Assembly (NCBI GenBank): GCA_030432025.1
Contig: JAUIIA010000002.1
Coordinates: 1-64,000, forward strand
Reading direction: 5' to 3'
Origin: Alphaproteobacteria bacterium
GTDB lineage: Bacteria > Pseudomonadota > Alphaproteobacteria > Micavibrionales > Micavibrionaceae
Length of the DNA stretch: 64,000 nt
Below the pieces are notes generated by a model. It was not told where the DNA came from and did no database searches. It was given only the letters and a program-made list of their open reading frames with translations. Positions 8,925 through 32,836 of the stretch are shown here, one piece after another (the first letter of the stretch is position 1; the number at the start of each line of letters is the position of its first letter). Made by a program: the position numbers and the translations under genes.

Positions 8925-9467
8925 TTATTCGCCTGTGATGATCTCGCGTAAAGCTTTGAGCTCGTTCACCATCCCTTTAAGAGCTTTGCGCTCGGGACTA
9001 CCAATTCCACCTGCAAGTGAACCTTTTACAGTCGCACTTACACTCGGCTCGTTATTATTCTGTGCCGGAGTGGCCTTGGATTCTTCTAAAAGCTGGGCTT
9101 TACCCTTTTCACGAAGAAGTTTTTGAACACCTTTGATCGTGTAGCCTTCGGTATACAGCAAATGATGAATTTTCTTGAGCAGCTCAAGATCTTCAGGGCG
9201 GTAATAACGGCGCCCACCGCCACGTTTGAGCGGACGGATCTGTGAAAACTTGGTTTCCCAAAAACGCAACACATGCTGTTGCACATCCAAAATGTCTGCA
9301 ACTTCACTAATTGTACGGAAAGCCGAAGCTGACTTACGGGATTTACGGCCACTGACTTTAGGCGTCTGAGCAGCTTTTTGCTCTACAGGCTTGCCAGTCA
9401 TTGGCCCAGTCTGCTGCGTACTCTCTTCTTGTGCCGGTTTGCCTGCAGGAAAAGATTGTTCACTCAT
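8925..9467 (-). CDS. MerR-family transcriptional regulator
   Basis: A 180-residue protein with a MerR-type winged helix at ~50-118: [20 protein letters not shown], then the basic wing [17 protein letters not shown]. The flanks are low-complexity. The start overlaps the ihfA stop by one base (TAATG), so translation is coupled. A MerR protein directly after ihfA and before tRNA-Pro is a conserved alphaproteobacterial arrangement; its target is not known to me. It lacks an obvious Cys-based metal site, so not a classical metal sensor. Confidence 0.88.
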
Positions 9468-25403: not shown

Positions 25404-26486
25404 TTAAAATATTTCGACATCAGATAAATCATATCCCGTCGAAGTAAAATAACCTTTAACAGCATCTTCATCTATTTTCTCAATATCTTGCGGGAACCAA
25501 TTGGGTTTATTGTCTTTATCGATTAACCGCGCACGAATACCTTCATACATATCGCTTTGTTTGACGAAATGTTGGACAAGAATAAAGTCTTGGGCAATGA
25601 CCTCGTCAAAACTCATACCACCTACAGTCCTAATGCATTCCGATACGATTTTCAGGCTTGTCGGTGAAACAGATCGCAAAACAGCAATTATGTCCTTGGC
25701 CTCTTCTGAACCATCATCTTCGAGGGCCGCAATAACCTCAGCAACACAAGTATTCGCAAAAGCTTTCTCAATCAATTCAGCGTTGGGCAGCGGTTCTGAA
25801 ACGACCACACCATCAAGAGCAGCCTTCAGCGCAGCCTCAAAATCAGCCTCATCCAAAACACCATGAACAGCCGAGACAACAGCATCCTCATTTACATCAT
25901 CAAGATAAATATCGCCTAACCCAAGGGCCACGGCTTGCTTGCCGTTAACGGAATCCCCCGTCAAAGCCATATAACGGCCATAATGGTGAGGACATTGATT
26001 AAGATGATACATACCACCGATATCGGGGAAAAAACCGATGATCACTTCGGGCATAGCCATCATAGTGCGATCGCCGCAAATCCTGACATTGCAATGCCCG
26101 GCAATACCGTAACCGCCGCCCATAGTAATACCATCCATGATCGATACGGTCGGTTTGGGGTAATTGAAAATTTGTTTGTTTAGTGAATATTCTTCGGCAA
26201 AAAATAACAGAGGAACACGCGGGCTCACAGCACCTCTTCGCGAATCCATACCGGCACTGTAAAAAGCTTTGATATCACCGCCCGAGCAAAAAGCACGGTC
26301 ACCGGTACCCATAAAAACGACAGCCTTAACATCATTATTGCTCTGCCAATGATGCAGGGCCGCTGCAATCTGTCGGATCATATCAAGCGACAGCGCATTC
26401 AAAGCCTTTGGTCTGTTCAAGGTAATCAACCCCAGACCATCACGCGTTTCAATAATAACTTCGTTTTCGGGAAATTCTTGATCCAT
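25404..26486 (-). CDS. 3-hydroxyisobutyryl-CoA hydrolase (crotonase fold)
   Basis: The 360-residue product is a long crotonase: ITLNRPKALNALSLDM, then AFCSGGDIKAFYSAG (oxyanion hole), the MDGITMGGGYGIAGH stretch and PEVIIGFFPDIGG with the acidic residue used by HIBYL-CoA hydrolases. The C-terminal extension (VRARLIDKDNKPNWFP-like, here GIRARLIDKDNKPNWFPQD) is the mark of this group rather than plain enoyl-CoA hydratase. Role: valine catabolism. It is divergent from hemB with 45 bp between starts. Confidence 0.9.
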   Translation of the reverse strand: MDQEFPENEVIIETRDGLGLITLNRPKALNALSLDMIRQIAAALHHWQSNNDVKAVVFMGTGDRAFCSGGDIKAFYSAGMDSRRGAVSPRVPLLFFAEEYSLNKQIFNYPKPTVSIMDGITMGGGYGIAGHCNVRICGDRTMMAMPEVIIGFFPDIGGMYHLNQCPHHYGRYMALTGDSVNGKQAVALGLGDIYLDDVNEDAVVSAVHGVLDEADFEAALKAALDGVVVSEPLPNAELIEKAFANTCVAEVIAALEDDGSEEAKDIIAVLRSVSPTSLKIVSECIRTVGGMSFDEVIAQDFILVQHFVKQSDMYEGIRARLIDKDNKPNWFPQDIEKIDEDAVKGYFTSTGYDLSDVEIF

Positions 26487-26531
26487 GGTGGATTAGAGCC
26501 TATTTATGTCCAAAAGAAATATGGTGACACG

Positions 26532-27581
26532 ATGAAACAACATTCAAACAATACGGCAAGCCCGACTGCGGAGCAAGCATCAGAAAAAAATACTGCACCC
26601 GGCTATCCCCAGACCCGTATGCGCCGATTGCGCGGCTCCACGTGGATGCGCGGCATGGTTGCGGAAAATGAACTTAAACCTGCTGACCTGATCTGGCCGG
26701 CGTTTATTCTCGAAGATGCGGATAAAGTCGAACCCGTATCAACCATGCCGGGCGTTGAAAGGCTGGGCATCGAAAAACTCGTCACAAAAGCACAAGAGGC
26801 ACAGGAACTAGGAGTTTCCGCTATTGCGCTATTCCCCGTCGTCCCACCATCGAAAAAGACCGACCGTGGTGACGAAAGCGTGAATCCCATGAACCTGATC
26901 TGCAACGCGGTCAAGCGCATCAGAGACGCAGCCCCTGATATAGGCATCATTACAGACGTCGCACTTGATCCTTACACGACCCATGGTCACGACGGAATTT
27001 TGCACGATGACAAGATCGCAAACGACGAGACAGTCGAAATACTATGCGAGCAAGCCCTGAACCAAGCACGCGCAGGTGCGGACATCATCGCCCCCTCCGA
27101 CATGATGGACGGGCGCGTAGGTGCCATTCGCAAGGCACTGGACAATGAAGGTTTCGAGGACGTCGCCATCATGTCATACGCAGCGAAATATGCGTCATGC
27201 TTCTACGGTCCGTTTCGTGACGCCGTTGGTTCAAAAGCCGCACTGAAAGGTGATAAGAAGACATATCAAATGAACCCCGCCAACAGCGATGAAGCGCTAC
27301 GTGAAGTCGAACTGGATATTCGTGAAGGTGCAGACATGGTCATGGTCAAGCCGGGTATGCCCTATTTGGACATCGTCCGCCGCGTGAAAGAAAAGTTCAG
27401 CGTCCCGACCTTTGCTTACCAAGTCAGCGGTGAATACGCCATGCTAAGGCATGCAGCAAACGAAGGCTGTTTCGACTTCGACACGGCTCTGATGGAAAGC
27501 TTACTTGGCTTTAAGCGCGCAGGATGCAATGGAATTCTGTCCTACGGCGCCATAGACGCGGCAAAGCTGCTGAAAGCCTAG
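26532..27581 (+). CDS. hemB: Delta-aminolevulinic acid dehydratase, Mg-type
   Basis: HemB condenses two 5-aminolevulinates to porphobilinogen for heme. The 349-residue product has both Schiff-base lysines: Lys219 in YAAKYASCFYGPFRDA and Lys273 in MVMVKPGMPYLDIV. The metal loop reads DVALDPYTTHGHDGI, with Asp instead of the zinc-binding Cys, so it is a Mg/no-zinc type typical of alphaproteobacteria. The frame is open from 26349, but the ATG at 26532 gives family length with a ~28-residue low-complexity lead. Confidence 0.95.
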   Translation: MKQHSNNTASPTAEQASEKNTAPGYPQTRMRRLRGSTWMRGMVAENELKPADLIWPAFILEDADKVEPVSTMPGVERLGIEKLVTKAQEAQELGVSAIALFPVVPPSKKTDRGDESVNPMNLICNAVKRIRDAAPDIGIITDVALDPYTTHGHDGILHDDKIANDETVEILCEQALNQARAGADIIAPSDMMDGRVGAIRKALDNEGFEDVAIMSYAAKYASCFYGPFRDAVGSKAALKGDKKTYQMNPANSDEALREVELDIREGADMVMVKPGMPYLDIVRRVKEKFSVPTFAYQVSGEYAMLRHAANEGCFDFDTALMESLLGFKRAGCNGILSYGAIDAAKLLKA

Positions 27582-27663: not shown

Positions 27664-29706
27664 ATGTTCAACTTCAAAAAACAAAAAAAGCTCAAACAAC
27701 AAAGAGACCGCTTTTTAGCGTACGCTTTTGCATCGGCTGATTTGTTCATTGAGGTCGACGCGGAAGGGGTAATTCTTTACGCAACGGGGGCGGTGAAATC
27801 ACTGACGGGTATTGATCACGACGCCCTACCCGGTAAAAAATGGCTGACCATTTTTGAGCCCAAGCACCACGCCCTCCTCATGAAGCTCAGGAAGACCGCT
27901 ATGCCCGGCCTGCGACAAGGGCCATTCCTAATCGAGCTCAATCAGAAATTCGGTGGTAAAAGAGGAATCTTAACCACCATTAAACTGCCCAACAGTAAAA
28001 ACTTCTATATCACTCTGGGCGTTAGCAGCGTTCTTCTGAACGCTCTTTCAAAGCTCATGGAAGATCACGAAGACGGTCCTATGCTCACAGGGTTCGTAGC
28101 AGAGGACCTGACCGAAGAAGAACCGTTAACCACAGATTTTGTGCCCGAGGATGAAAGCCAGCCCGAGACTGAAGCGACGGAGGCCACGTCGGGCGAAGAA
28201 GAACCAGTCACGACGGACTTACCGCCTGAAGATAAATACATCGATGACCTTTTGCCCGAAGGTTTTCACGACCTGCAAGATGACGGAATGGTCGTTACGG
28301 ACTTTATTGCCGATGACCTCATGGAAGACGAGGCCATGACCACAGGTTTTGTGGCGGATGATAGTGATGAAGACGTCCTGACGACAGGGTTCGTCGCTGA
28401 CGATCTGGACAATGAAGCCATGACACCGGACCTAAAGCCGGAAATCGAAAATGATCAAATTCTGACGACTGACTTCTCAGGTGAGACAGGCGGCGCGGAT
28501 GACATGCTGGAAGAACGCTCCGATTTTCACGACGAAGCCAAGCGCGTATTCAAATACGCAAAAAGAAACAATGTCGGCGCATCAATGACTGTATTCGATT
28601 TTGGTTCAACCGAAACCATCCCCGAAGAAAACTGGTCGGAAATACTTGGCCGCATCGCCGAACTTATGCGCAACGAATCTCTGGCCGACTGCCCGCCCGT
28701 ACACATCAAAGGAAACACCTACGGCCTTCTCCATAACAGCGACAGACAAATGGAAAAGTTCAAGGGACACATCGAAAAGATGTCAAAGGAACTTGACCCC
28801 GCCGGGAACGGTATCGATGTTTCATTAAAAACAATCGACGCGAGCCTTCACGAAATCTCGAGCGATGAGGCAACACGCGCCCTTTTGCATACAATCAACG
28901 CCTTTAAAGAAGACAAGGACGAAACGATTCAAATGTCACTGGCCCAGAACATGAAAAAGCTGGTGACTACAAACCGTGACAAACTCTCCGAATTCAAGGC
29001 CATCATCGAACGTGTGGACTTTAACATTAACTTTCAGCCGATCGTCGCCGCTAAGACAGGAGAAGCCGAACACTATGAGGTCTTGTGCCGTGTGAACTCG
29101 GGCGATATTGGCGATTGGGTCCTATTCGGCGAAGATAATGGTTTGGCCCCGAACTTCGACCTGGCGGTTCTGGAACGGACAATGAATTACATACACTTCA
29201 AAGCCGGAACGACCCGCACCCGGTTTGCCATCAACATCTCCAGCAAATCCATTGAAGACAAAAACTTCTTTGAAAAATTCCACGAACAACTCGCACGCAG
29301 AGACCTCAACACGCGCCTGTTGATCGAGATAAACAACCCCAGAACCATCGAGGACTTCAAAACGCTTGAAAGCTTTGTTTTCTCACTCACCGATCTGGAT
29401 TACCCCGTGACGCTCGATAATATCGTCTTCGAAAAAGATTTGCCCGATTTTCTGGAAAAACTGGATGTCTCTTACATCAAAACCAACCACAAGATGCTAA
29501 AGCGCCTTTACGAAGAGCCGGATGGTCAAGAAATTCTCGATGAAATCATCTCGGTCTGCAAGAACCGAAACATTAAAATCATTGGCCAATTCATTGAAGA
29601 AGAAGAGCAATTGGAGTTTTTGAAACAAATCGGAATTCCATGCGCTCAGGGATACCTCTTCGGACATGCCGAGTCCGCGCCCAAATTCATACCGCCGAGA
29701 AGTTAA
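27664..29706 (+). CDS. PAS / acidic-repeat / degenerate EAL signalling protein
   Basis: A 680-residue cytoplasmic protein. Residues ~15-130 look like a PAS domain (ADLFIEVDAEGVILYATGAV). Residues 140-272 hold about eight copies of an acidic motif with consensus TTxFVADD. Residues ~290-440 are unassigned. Residues ~444-675 are an EAL domain: FQPIVAAKTG, EVLCR (Glu472), INIS, LLIEINN and QGYLFG are kept, but DDFG is DNIV, KID is KTN and AEGVE is GQFIE. It is probably a non-catalytic c-di-GMP-related domain. The gene precedes motA by 193 bp on the same strand, suggesting motility control. Confidence 0.8.
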   Translation: MFNFKKQKKLKQQRDRFLAYAFASADLFIEVDAEGVILYATGAVKSLTGIDHDALPGKKWLTIFEPKHHALLMKLRKTAMPGLRQGPFLIELNQKFGGKRGILTTIKLPNSKNFYITLGVSSVLLNALSKLMEDHEDGPMLTGFVAEDLTEEEPLTTDFVPEDESQPETEATEATSGEEEPVTTDLPPEDKYIDDLLPEGFHDLQDDGMVVTDFIADDLMEDEAMTTGFVADDSDEDVLTTGFVADDLDNEAMTPDLKPEIENDQILTTDFSGETGGADDMLEERSDFHDEAKRVFKYAKRNNVGASMTVFDFGSTETIPEENWSEILGRIAELMRNESLADCPPVHIKGNTYGLLHNSDRQMEKFKGHIEKMSKELDPAGNGIDVSLKTIDASLHEISSDEATRALLHTINAFKEDKDETIQMSLAQNMKKLVTTNRDKLSEFKAIIERVDFNINFQPIVAAKTGEAEHYEVLCRVNSGDIGDWVLFGEDNGLAPNFDLAVLERTMNYIHFKAGTTRTRFAINISSKSIEDKNFFEKFHEQLARRDLNTRLLIEINNPRTIEDFKTLESFVFSLTDLDYPVTLDNIVFEKDLPDFLEKLDVSYIKTNHKMLKRLYEEPDGQEILDEIISVCKNRNIKIIGQFIEEEEQLEFLKQIGIPCAQGYLFGHAESAPKFIPPRS

Positions 29707-29835
29707 GGGTATTATGCCTACATACATGCTTATGCCCTTGATCTTACGCGCAAAAAACAGCACACTCGTATAAGCGCTGTTATTCAGGAACTTCGGATAC
29801 TCAACGCCGTCTGCGTCAATTTCAATCATTGCCAA

Positions 29836-29850
29836 TTAAGAGCTTTTTAA
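29836..29850. promoter_or_regulatory. CtrA-box-like sequence upstream of motA
   Basis: TTAA-GAGCTTT-TTAA matches the CtrA half-site consensus TTAA-N7-TTAA and lies 50 bp upstream of motA, in an intergenic gap. CtrA controls flagellar genes in many alphaproteobacteria. About one such match is expected by chance in 64 kb, so position is the main support. A GANTC site (29856-29860) adjoins it. Confidence 0.4.
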
Positions 29851-29899
29851 TTGTGAATCGCATATCCTGCATATCTGACAAAGGATTTGGACAGACTTT

Positions 29900-30793
29900 A
29901 TGAAACTCGTCGGTTTAGCACTCGTTTTTGTATGTACCTTTGGCGGTCTTTTGATCGCTATGCATTTCGATATCCCGAAATTCATGAAGCTGATGACCCT
30001 AATCCTCAGCGCGATGCCCGGGGAAATGGTCATTATTTTGGGCTGTGCTATTTCAGCTTTCCTGATTGCGAACTCGACGGAAACCATTAAGGGCACCATC
30101 AAATATATGGGCGCCCTAACAAAACCCGCCGCCCACTCCAAGGAAGACTACGTTGAGTTGATGAGCGGCCTGTACACAGTATTCAAGCTCGCACGAACAA
30201 AGGGCTGGCTGGCTTTGGAACAGCACATAGAACAGCCGGAAGAAAGCGACCTGTTTAGCCAATTCCCTGCCCTACAGCATAACCACCACGCCATTGTGTT
30301 CTTATGTGACTATTTGCGCATCATCTCCCTAGGAAATGAAAACCCGTTTGAGCTCGAAGCTCTGATGGACGAAGAAATTGAAACCATAGCCCACCATGAA
30401 GGACATCCCGGCCATGCCGTTCAAACTATGGCGGATGGTATCCCTGCTCTAGGGATCGTGGCAGCTGTTTTGGGCGTGATTAAAACAATGGCATCCATTT
30501 CCGAGCCGCCCGAAGTTCTTGGAAAACTTATTGGTGGTGCCTTGGTGGGTACATTCCTCGGGGTGTGGTTATCTTACGGCATGGTTGCCCCGATTGCGGG
30601 CGCTATGTCCAGCAAGGCTGAATCCGAAGTCATGTATTTCAAATGTATAAAGGTCGCCATCATCGCGTTCCTGAATGGTGCAGCACCGCAAGTCGCCGTA
30701 GAATTCGCGCGTAAGTTCCTTCCCCATGATGTCCAGCCGACATTCCAGGAACTTGAAGAACACTTGAATGAATTGCCATCCCCGACTGCATAA
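29900..30793 (+). CDS. motA: Flagellar motor stator protein MotA
   Basis: MotA with MotB forms the proton-driven stator. The 297-residue product has four membrane segments, the cytoplasmic loop with ARTKGWLALEQHIEQPEES (matching the Arg90/Glu98 rotor-contact region of E. coli MotA), and the paired helices GIPALGIVAAVLGVIKTM and GALVGTFLGVWLSYGMVAPI with the conserved prolines. motB follows 37 bp later. Possible CtrA site upstream. Confidence 0.95.
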   Translation: MKLVGLALVFVCTFGGLLIAMHFDIPKFMKLMTLILSAMPGEMVIILGCAISAFLIANSTETIKGTIKYMGALTKPAAHSKEDYVELMSGLYTVFKLARTKGWLALEQHIEQPEESDLFSQFPALQHNHHAIVFLCDYLRIISLGNENPFELEALMDEEIETIAHHEGHPGHAVQTMADGIPALGIVAAVLGVIKTMASISEPPEVLGKLIGGALVGTFLGVWLSYGMVAPIAGAMSSKAESEVMYFKCIKVAIIAFLNGAAPQVAVEFARKFLPHDVQPTFQELEEHLNELPSPTA

Positions 30794-30830
30794 GCGCTAG
30801 GGAACATTAAAGCTTAAGGATCACACGAAA

Positions 30831-31913
30831 GTGTCCGAAGAAGATAAACTCGAACAGCCCATAGTAATTAAGAAGATCGTCAAAGGCGGCGGTCACCATG
30901 GTGGTGCGTGGAAAGTTGCATATGCCGACTTCGTAACCGCGATGATGGCGTTCTTTCTCCTTCTGTGGTTGCTGAACGTTTCAACCGATGAACAACGTGA
31001 AGCGATTTCGAACTTCTTTGACCCGACACACCCGACCGTATCCCAACGTGAAAGCGGTGCGGGTGGTGTACTCGGAGGTCTGACAATGGCCACGGAAGGG
31101 GCAATGACCTCCAACGTACAGCCAATTGCCACCCCTACTCCTACAGGTAGCGCCGGCAATGTCCCTAACACGAAAAAGAATAAGAACCTGAAAGGCGGCG
31201 CACCTGAAGAAGGCATCTCCGAATTGGAAAAAGCGAAAGAAAAACTCCGCCAGCAAGAGCAGGAACGGTTCAAGAAAGCAGAAAACGCGCTTAAAGAAGC
31301 CATTGAAAACAATCCTGACCTCCAAAACATCAAGGATAACATCCTGATCGACCAAACACCGGAAGGTTTGCGTATTCAGGTTATCGATAAAGACGACAAT
31401 CCGATGTTCGCAACCGGAAGTGCACAAATGTTTGAAAAGACAGAAAAACTGTTCCGTGAAGTCGCCGCGATTATTAAAGAACAGCCAAACGATCTATCTA
31501 TTCGTGGGCATACAGACAGCGCCCCTTACGGCGCAGGTGCAACCTACACAAACTGGGAGCTTTCGGCCGACCGTGCGAATTCCAGCCGACGAGTCTTACT
31601 GGATTCGGACTTTCCTGCTGAACGTGTCCACGATGTTGTCGGTAAAGCCGACACTGAACCTCTTATCCCCGAAGACCCTCGCGCTGACAGTAACCGTCGT
31701 GTTTCCATCATCCTGCTGAAAGAAGAACTCACAAATCCTGATTTCGAGGAAAAAGCCAAGGAGTTGGTCCCTGATCCGGAAAGCACGACACCTGTCGAAG
31801 AACCAACCGTACCCGTACAAATCGAAGAAGGTGAAGTCGAAGATTCCGGTATTCCCGGTATTCCAAAGCTCGGAACCTTCAAAAAGACCCCGGGCAAAGT
31901 CGAATTTCCTTAA
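30831..31913 (+). CDS. motB: Flagellar motor protein MotB
   Basis: The 360-residue product has one N-terminal membrane helix with the proton-binding Asp33 in AYADFVTAMMAFFLLLWLLN, a plug-like amphipathic stretch, a charged linker (~105-160) and an OmpA-like peptidoglycan-binding domain (LSIRGHTDSAP, NWELSADRANSSRR, DPRADSNRRVSI). A Glu/Pro-rich tail ends the protein. GTG start. It closes the motAB operon. Confidence 0.95.
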   Translation: MSEEDKLEQPIVIKKIVKGGGHHGGAWKVAYADFVTAMMAFFLLLWLLNVSTDEQREAISNFFDPTHPTVSQRESGAGGVLGGLTMATEGAMTSNVQPIATPTPTGSAGNVPNTKKNKNLKGGAPEEGISELEKAKEKLRQQEQERFKKAENALKEAIENNPDLQNIKDNILIDQTPEGLRIQVIDKDDNPMFATGSAQMFEKTEKLFREVAAIIKEQPNDLSIRGHTDSAPYGAGATYTNWELSADRANSSRRVLLDSDFPAERVHDVVGKADTEPLIPEDPRADSNRRVSIILLKEELTNPDFEEKAKELVPDPESTTPVEEPTVPVQIEEGEVEDSGIPGIPKLGTFKKTPGKVEFP

Positions 31914-32437: not shown

Positions 32438-32836
32438 ATGAAAACGCTATTACTCGTTGACGACTCTGAAGCAGACCAGTTTCTTAACACCAGCCTAATT
32501 GAAGCATATGCGCCACAAGTCACCATCGTGAAGGCGTATGACGGCTCAGAGGCCATAAAACTGCTATCGCGACGAAACTTCAATCCGGATTTAATTCTTC
32601 TGGACCTCAACATGCCGATTTTAAATGGATTTGAATTCTTGAGTAAATACGAAGGTTCCCCGCATATGGGCAAAGCCCCCGTAGTTGTGCTGACATCGTC
32701 GAATTTGAGAACAGATAAGGCCGCAGCGCTGGAATATGAGTGCGTCAAAAAATACCTCACAAAGCCTATAGCTACTCAAAATCTTGATGAAATCGCAAGT
32801 ATCATAAATTGCCCTAAAGAAAAATGCCTCCACTAG
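32438..32836 (+). CDS. Single-domain response regulator (CheY-like, Rcp1 type)
   Basis: A 132-residue stand-alone receiver: acidic pair in LLVDDSEADQFL, phosphoacceptor Asp in ILLDLNMPILNG, Thr/Ser in VVLTSSNLRTD and the Lys in KKYLTKPI. No output domain. The DSEADQ opening is like the Rcp1-type receivers that pair with hybrid kinases or phytochromes. No kinase is adjacent. The motAB genes upstream hint at a role in motility, but this is inference. Confidence 0.88.
   Translation: MKTLLLVDDSEADQFLNTSLIEAYAPQVTIVKAYDGSEAIKLLSRRNFNPDLILLDLNMPILNGFEFLSKYEGSPHMGKAPVVVLTSSNLRTDKAAALEYECVKKYLTKPIATQNLDEIASIINCPKEKCLH

Follow-up and report, generated by a model that had tools for sequence, protein, structure and literature searches.

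What becomes of a cyclic di-GMP (c-di-GMP) phosphodiesterase encoded beside the stator genes motA and motB once its EAL domain has lost part of the catalytic site? The question is raised by a gene in a 64,000-nucleotide stretch of DNA (hereafter, the window) from a Micavibrionaceae bacterium of the Alphaproteobacteria with a genome of 2.44 Mb (assembly GCA_030432025.1, contig JAUIIA010000002.1, positions 1 to 64,000). A sequence-only reading of the window had described a PAS-EAL protein encoded directly before motAB; open reading frames (ORFs) and Pfam matches confirm this placement, but a degenerate GGDEF domain between PAS and EAL had been overlooked. We favor the reading, at a probability of about one half, that this PAS/EAL protein is a phosphodiesterase turned non-hydrolyzing c-di-GMP receptor, comparable to FimX and LapD, which would act on motility.

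Metal ligands and pocket of the EAL domain

We aligned the window protein with 74 of 80 fetched loci, themselves the best 80 of 111 confirmed loci (75 rows in all; L083, L084, L089, L092, L094, and L135 were omitted as broken or short). The losses listed by the sequence-only reading, namely the second Asp of DDFG, the Asp of KID, and the first Glu of AEGVE, stand in this alignment, and these key residues do not align as functional. In the available excerpt of PMC5301497, the M1 ligands of PA3825 are Glu39, Asn98, Asp130, and Asp160, and its M2 contacts are Asp161 and Asp183 with Mg and Asp160 and Glu217 with Ca. Because the spacings (22 and 56) match, we equate window positions 586, 608, and 642 with PA3825 positions 161, 183, and 217 (Table 1). 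The M1 ligands E472, N524, E555, and D585 are all retained in the window, as is E645, the second Glu of AEGVE.

To these we added pocket positions of two kinds: R476, N524, Q662, and K606, which correspond by motif to BlrP1 Arg192, Asn239, Gln379, and Lys323, residues with published roles in the part of PMC3989770 at hand, and Q458, L474, E645, and G663, picked for conservation. The window protein and its sister L062 keep all four M1 ligands, none of the three M2 ligands, and all seven of the other pocket positions. The remaining degenerate members are L074 (M1 4/4, M2 1/3, other pocket positions 7/7), L065 (4/4, 1/3, 3/7), L070 (3/4, 0/3, 3/7), and L081 (3/4, 1/3, 1/7), the last being the most diverged member, with a less certain alignment. 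The M2 losses are not a matter of chance, since among the 69 other aligned members the M2 set is complete in 68 (the exception, L130, keeps two of three); all 69 keep every M1 ligand. Among 37 conserved columns, the probability of losing exactly those three M2 residues while keeping the four M1 ligands is ~0.009 for the window and for L062 each, two values that are not independent.

There appear to be two sorts of degenerate member, as the pocket is kept in the window protein, L062, and L074 (receptor-like) and mostly lost in L065, L070, and L081 (pocket-poor). For the latter three, the residues lost argue for decay or for use as an adaptor. An adaptor working without c-di-GMP would employ the EAL domain as a protein-binding scaffold and leave the work to the PAS domain and the acidic repeats described below, which form arrays in the window clade and are built from another unit in L065; the excerpts available to us provide precedents in YdiV (PMC3510510) and YcgF (PMC3989770). 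However, none of the pocket positions checked is lost in the window protein or L062, whereas YdiV has lost 8 of 10 conserved residues according to the same partial source (PMC3510510), and we regard an adaptor of this type as unlikely. We consider it extremely improbable that a one-metal or rearranged site still hydrolyzes c-di-GMP slowly: the M1 site and K606 are intact, but all three M2-side residues are gone, and position 586, Asn in the window protein, is Lys in L062.

Catalytic loss and gene order across the family

In named genome records (the same best 80 of 111 loci), relatives of the gene occur in Micavibrio and other Alphaproteobacteria, mostly uncultured; they include Micavibrio sp. 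TMED27 (L081), Micavibrio sp. ARS33 (L070), OFTM95 (L063), NORP248 (L062), and HKST-UBA23 (L082). Catalytic losses, as predicted from the residues, occur only among Micavibrio-like copies adjoining motAB. Degenerate members lie beside motA in six of six cases versus 17 of 69 for the others (Fisher p 0.0005); the rows of this test share ancestry and its p-value shows no causation, and adjacency as proof of function was rejected.

A tree was built from six neighboring proteins and limited to those 24 species of the named set that have motA. The degenerate rows require four or more changes on it, a count (L083 excluded) that is model-bound because the tree backbone is partly open. That one ancestral loss was passed on to every degenerate member was rejected on this count and by a one-clade constraint (approximately unbiased test, p-AU 0.0095). 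One half of the tree, with 12 rows, contains all six degenerate rows and six others, and the other half is wholly intact. L063, the nearest relative of the window/L062 pair, keeps all seven metal ligands (with DDFS for DDFG). Sixteen conserved EAL positions are lost in the window; because L062 has lost the same 16, with an identical replacement at nine (F477V, G527S, T557N, E558N, S559P, F587I, D603S, G609H, E642Q), the degenerate state predates the split of the two.

Between the window and L062, the proportion of nonsynonymous differences (pN) in the EAL domain is 0.16, against a saturated proportion of synonymous differences (pS) of 0.86; pN is 0.17 in both the PAS and the GGDEF-like domain. 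With pN far below pS, an open frame, and no stop or frameshift relative to L062, we take the degenerate EAL to be under purifying selection in the window and L062 and rejected a pseudogene for the window lineage, while keeping this as a rival reading for L070/L081 and L083. In L083 (7983-9606), the PAS-EAL frame is interrupted near 9170, by a broken copy or an assembly error. The EAL is the most conserved domain in all six intact pairs (e.g., L076/L077, 71% identity vs 50% for PAS); identity is 73% for both domains in the window/L062 pair, and 35% for EAL vs 52% for PAS in L070/L081.

We then consider gene order in 57 genomes, the window's own included, with counts taken from the matches listed. 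Whole copies of the PAS/EAL gene are present in at least 26 of the 57 (G001 has a fragment at a contig end), and motA lies directly downstream in 16 of these 26: 15 of the window's family, the window among them, and G046, which belongs to a different family of the order. The ten without motA directly downstream are G006, G008, G020 (on a contig of 4051 bases), G021, G042, G043, G049, G052, G054, and G055. Thirteen of the 16 same-family genomes without the gene were examined, and hemB directly precedes motA in nine; the hemB-motA gap is larger in G009 and G023, and hemB was not seen in G028 and G032. A search for the same gene order, which the sequence-only reading had proposed, thus bears out a recurrent order hemB-PAS/EAL-motA-motB, but in many relatives the gene was not found among the matches listed; it is a recurrent but dispensable neighbor of motility genes rather than a fixed member of a stator operon. 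The titles and opening lines of abstracts listed for open-licence papers name no EAL gene beside motAB.

Elsewhere the setting differs. At L087 (1325-6384), in another family of the order, the gene sits between hemB and cheA-cheW; outside the order, where few loci were examined, its neighbors vary: L109 (Robiginitomaculum) has kinases and a response regulator next to it, and L113 a small heat-shock protein and a metallophosphatase. Two MotA matches carry one stop each (G030:C13:111900-112787, TAA; G028:C1:1147245-1148132, TAG).

These patterns bear on decay, in which stator-linked phosphodiesterase activity would be dispensable, the EAL domain drifting, and the gene heading to the loss seen in other genera. 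The four or more independent catalytic losses fit such a course, as do the nine genomes in which hemB directly adjoins motA, the broken frame of L083, and the poorly conserved EAL of L070/L081. Set against it are the low pN of the window/L062 pair beside its saturated pS, with no stop or frameshift; the 16 shared losses, by which the degenerate state predates the split; and the position of the losses in this pair, on M2 and not on the pocket positions checked. We judge decay to be rather unlikely for the window gene.

Domain architecture and known systems

The features of the locus are collected in Table 1.

Table 1. Features of the PAS/EAL locus, with positions in the window
Feature	Position	Strand	Basis and remarks
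hemB (porphobilinogen synthase)	26349..27581	+	498 bits vs cut-off 297; usual upstream neighbor
PAS - degenerate GGDEF - degenerate EAL gene	27664..29706	+	680 aa; ORF, Pfam, AlphaFold2 model, Foldseek
N-terminal helix and PAS (residues 1-133)	27664..28062	+	family consensus QRDRFLAFAFASADLFLE; Pfam/model
Disordered acidic linker (residues 138-278)	28075..28497	+	diverged TTGF-x-A-D-D type repeats
GGDEF-fold domain without motif (residues 285-415)	28516..28908	+	IKGNTYGLLHN at motif position
EAL domain (residues 446-668)	28999..29667	+	Pfam, structure comparison
D586N, M2 ligand lost (second Asp of DDFG)	29419..29421	+	alignment; role by homology to PMC5301497 (excerpt)
D608N, M2 ligand lost (Asp of KID)	29485..29487	+	alignment; role by homology to PMC5301497 (excerpt)
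E642Q, M2-side Glu lost (first Glu of AEGVE)	29587..29589	+	alignment; role by homology to PMC5301497 (excerpt)
Promoter-like element CTTGAT-N18-CACACT	29737..29766	+	pattern search of gap before motA
motA (MotA1 type)	29900..30793	+	Pfam, NCBIfam
motB	30831..31913	+	Pfam; just below NCBIfam cut-off

The EAL domain of the window protein is matched by Pfam over its cut-off (residues 448-668, E 3.2e-37); for PAS, the Pfam matches at 24-109 fall below cut-off and the general NCBIfam PAS model is passed (25.7 vs 22.9 bits). An AlphaFold2 model, for which the window was aligned with 54 of the 74 relatives (55 rows), has a mean predicted local distance difference test score (pLDDT) of 77.8. It consists of PAS (1-133), a globular domain (~285-415), and an EAL barrel (454-668) preceded by a helix (426-449), with residues 138-278 at pLDDT < 50. 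The Pfam GGDEF model matches just one of 55 family members. A 58-row profile of the middle domain (about residues 282-425) matches GGDEF chains of the PDB (MorA on top, E 1.3e-5), and a separate model of it (pLDDT 88.7) also matches GGDEF domains (best Z 11.1, root-mean-square deviation (rmsd) 4.0, 137 aligned; Z 9.1 at rank 50); we therefore assign the order PAS - degenerate GGDEF - EAL. The motif GG[DE]EF occurs in no aligned family member; relatives read, e.g., DGRYSVIHD, and the nearest approaches are GGERF in L118 and GGGHF in L086.

The linker between PAS and GGDEF measures 25-27 residues in 19 of 23 motA-linked rows and is long in the other four: 168 residues in the window, 156 in L062, 134 in L063, and 90 in L065. 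A longer linker, with no TTGF motif match, is also found in L073, where motA is not next. In the window, residues 138-278 carry a net charge of -43. The repeats of the window clade have a period of 14-15 and the type LTTGYEAEDIDKDA, clear in L062 and L063 and diverged in the window, and the linker of L065 (7995-9788) is made of a different acidic 16-residue unit around FDDSLYN; two unlike acidic arrays have thus originated at the same site. Of the four motA-linked members with a long linker, three are catalytically dead as judged by their ligands, and L063 is intact. Searched elsewhere in the window genome at E up to 10, the linker repeats returned just the gene itself, and a composite repeat query over the 57 genomes matched only the PAS/EAL gene, in three of them. 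Tandem Repeats Finder reported no DNA array in the window stretch and one in L062. That the linker serves as a docking arm is a guess.

In structural comparison by VIA-align, which like all our structural comparisons rests on predicted models, the closest structures to the window EAL are 3pfm, a P. fluorescens EAL (Z 27.7), LapD 3pjt (Z 27.6, rmsd 2.2, 233 aligned), and FimX 3hv8 (Z 26.5, rmsd 2.5, 235 aligned). Comparison with active domains, a check suggested at the outset, hence finds the EAL nearest to receptors, but catalytic EALs score only ~2-3 Z lower (PdeA, Z 25.5; MucR, Z 25.4).

FimX, of Pseudomonas and Xanthomonas, has a PAS / degenerate GGDEF / degenerate EAL order similar to that of the window protein, preceded by an N-terminal REC domain; unlike FimX, the window protein has no REC domain in the Pfam scan and carries the acidic repeat linker. 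LapD, of Pseudomonas and Vibrio, carries a HAMP domain, which the Pfam scan does not find in the window protein, and the NCBIfam LapD equivalog model is not reached (67.6 bits vs a cut-off of 1020). PA0861 (RbdA), a catalytic GGDEF-EAL protein, shares the PAS-GGDEF-EAL order and is the best whole-chain Foldseek match (E 4.0e-24), whereas the window protein has lost both catalytic motifs. According to published excerpts, FimX is an inactive phosphodiesterase without the DDFGTG motif (PMC5301497) and serves pilus assembly (PMC3989770), whereas the window gene adjoins motAB; LapD is a GGDEF-EAL receptor with an inactive EAL, as predicted here (PMC3989770); and YcgR and other PilZ brakes place motor speed under c-di-GMP control (PMC12713396), whereas the window protein has no PilZ domain in the Pfam scan. 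In class terms, the window protein shows the features of a degenerate GGDEF-EAL receptor (a GGDEF without its motif, an EAL without M2 ligands, and contact residues that are kept, the last by sequence only), and with M2 lost it does not have the two complete metal sites of a catalytic EAL phosphodiesterase.

TipF, an alphaproteobacterial EAL protein tied to the flagellum per its NCBIfam description, gives 48.5 bits with the window protein, short of the equivalog cut-off of 600. Another degenerate EAL of the window genome, L003:1501-2193 (G000 C5:254094-254786; SLDHV, KIE, VEKIE), has TipF as its best NCBIfam match, with 176 bits from the EAL part alone, the cut-off of 600 being for the whole protein. 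Two further EAL domains of the genome have complete motifs, and it also has seven GGDEF matches over cut-off and two PilZ matches.

Downstream of the PAS/EAL gene, motA starts 193 bases past the stop and motB is next. The window MotA passes both Pfam and NCBIfam MotA1, and MotB passes Pfam and scores slightly under the NCBIfam cut-off (272.8 vs 277). The true start of hemB may lie further downstream, as the profile match begins at residue 87. A single-domain response regulator after motB (window 32438-32836) is fast-evolving (57% identity to its L062 counterpart vs 94% for MotA); the other motA loci compared have weak response-regulator matches (L060, L061) or none.

The promoter pattern (Table 1) was derived from sequences of the first set, in which the EAL gene precedes motA, and 7 of the 24 loci of that set carry it before motA. 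So do 4 of the 20 loci of the other set, compared with 1.4% in shuffled sequence, the shuffles preserving base composition only. Of the four, L166 and L167 are close fits and L157 and L159 loose ones; two of the four genomes concerned have the EAL gene elsewhere (G006, G021), and no copy of it was found in G011 or G035. The pattern makes it plausible that motA has a promoter of its own.

Weighing a receptor that acts on motility

Under the receptor reading, the family consists of c-di-GMP phosphodiesterases that are regulated through PAS and whose GGDEF domain is inactive. In the window lineage the EAL domain has lost its M2 site, and with it presumably hydrolysis, whereas the M1 ligands and the predicted contacts to c-di-GMP remain; binding is predicted because the pocket residues are kept. 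The PAS domain would sense a cue, c-di-GMP occupancy would alter the PAS-GGDEF-EAL arrangement, and swimming would be affected, probably at the stator or close to it, a target to which synteny alone points. Besides the kept pocket, the low pN of the window pair, the other c-di-GMP proteins of the genome, and the neighboring motility genes (motA and, in L087, cheA-cheW) speak for this reading.

Several observations weigh against this reading. The full pocket is found in only three of the six degenerate members, and the constraint on the EAL domain is relaxed in the degenerate pairs, yet far from gone in the window pair. The fold decides little, because catalytic EALs come within ~2-3 Z of LapD and FimX and the top Foldseek match is PA0861. 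The promoter-like element before motA weakens the argument from co-expression and makes obligatory co-transcription doubtful. The sequence-only reading had gone further and proposed a dedicated sensor that would bind MotA/MotB: the M2 loss, the kept pocket, and the recurrent motAB linkage fit a non-catalytic EAL receptor close to the stator, but the evidence does not extend to a dedicated stator-binding sensor, since 17 of the 23 motA-linked copies have a full set of metal ligands and are predicted to be active as phosphodiesterases, the gene was not found in many motA-bearing relatives among the matches listed, motA seems to have a promoter-like element of its own, and the gene elsewhere neighbors cheA-cheW or lies apart from motA.

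A more specific version, which we hold to be decidedly unlikely, is that an M2-dead EAL was made repeatedly from a stator-linked phosphodiesterase and that in the window lineage it became a receptor whose acidic arm would dock on the stator or rotor, forming a PAS-gated c-di-GMP swimming brake without PilZ in Micavibrio-like cells.

In the available part of the M. aeruginosavorus genome paper (PMC3189940), predators of this lineage swim in the attack phase and stop being motile when they attach to prey. Degenerate EAL proteins are common; here, active, near-intact, and dead forms coexist at one syntenic place beside motAB. The locus therefore allows testing how an enzyme becomes a receptor or an adaptor, and whether c-di-GMP regulation of stators extends beyond PilZ proteins, in a lineage that includes predators.

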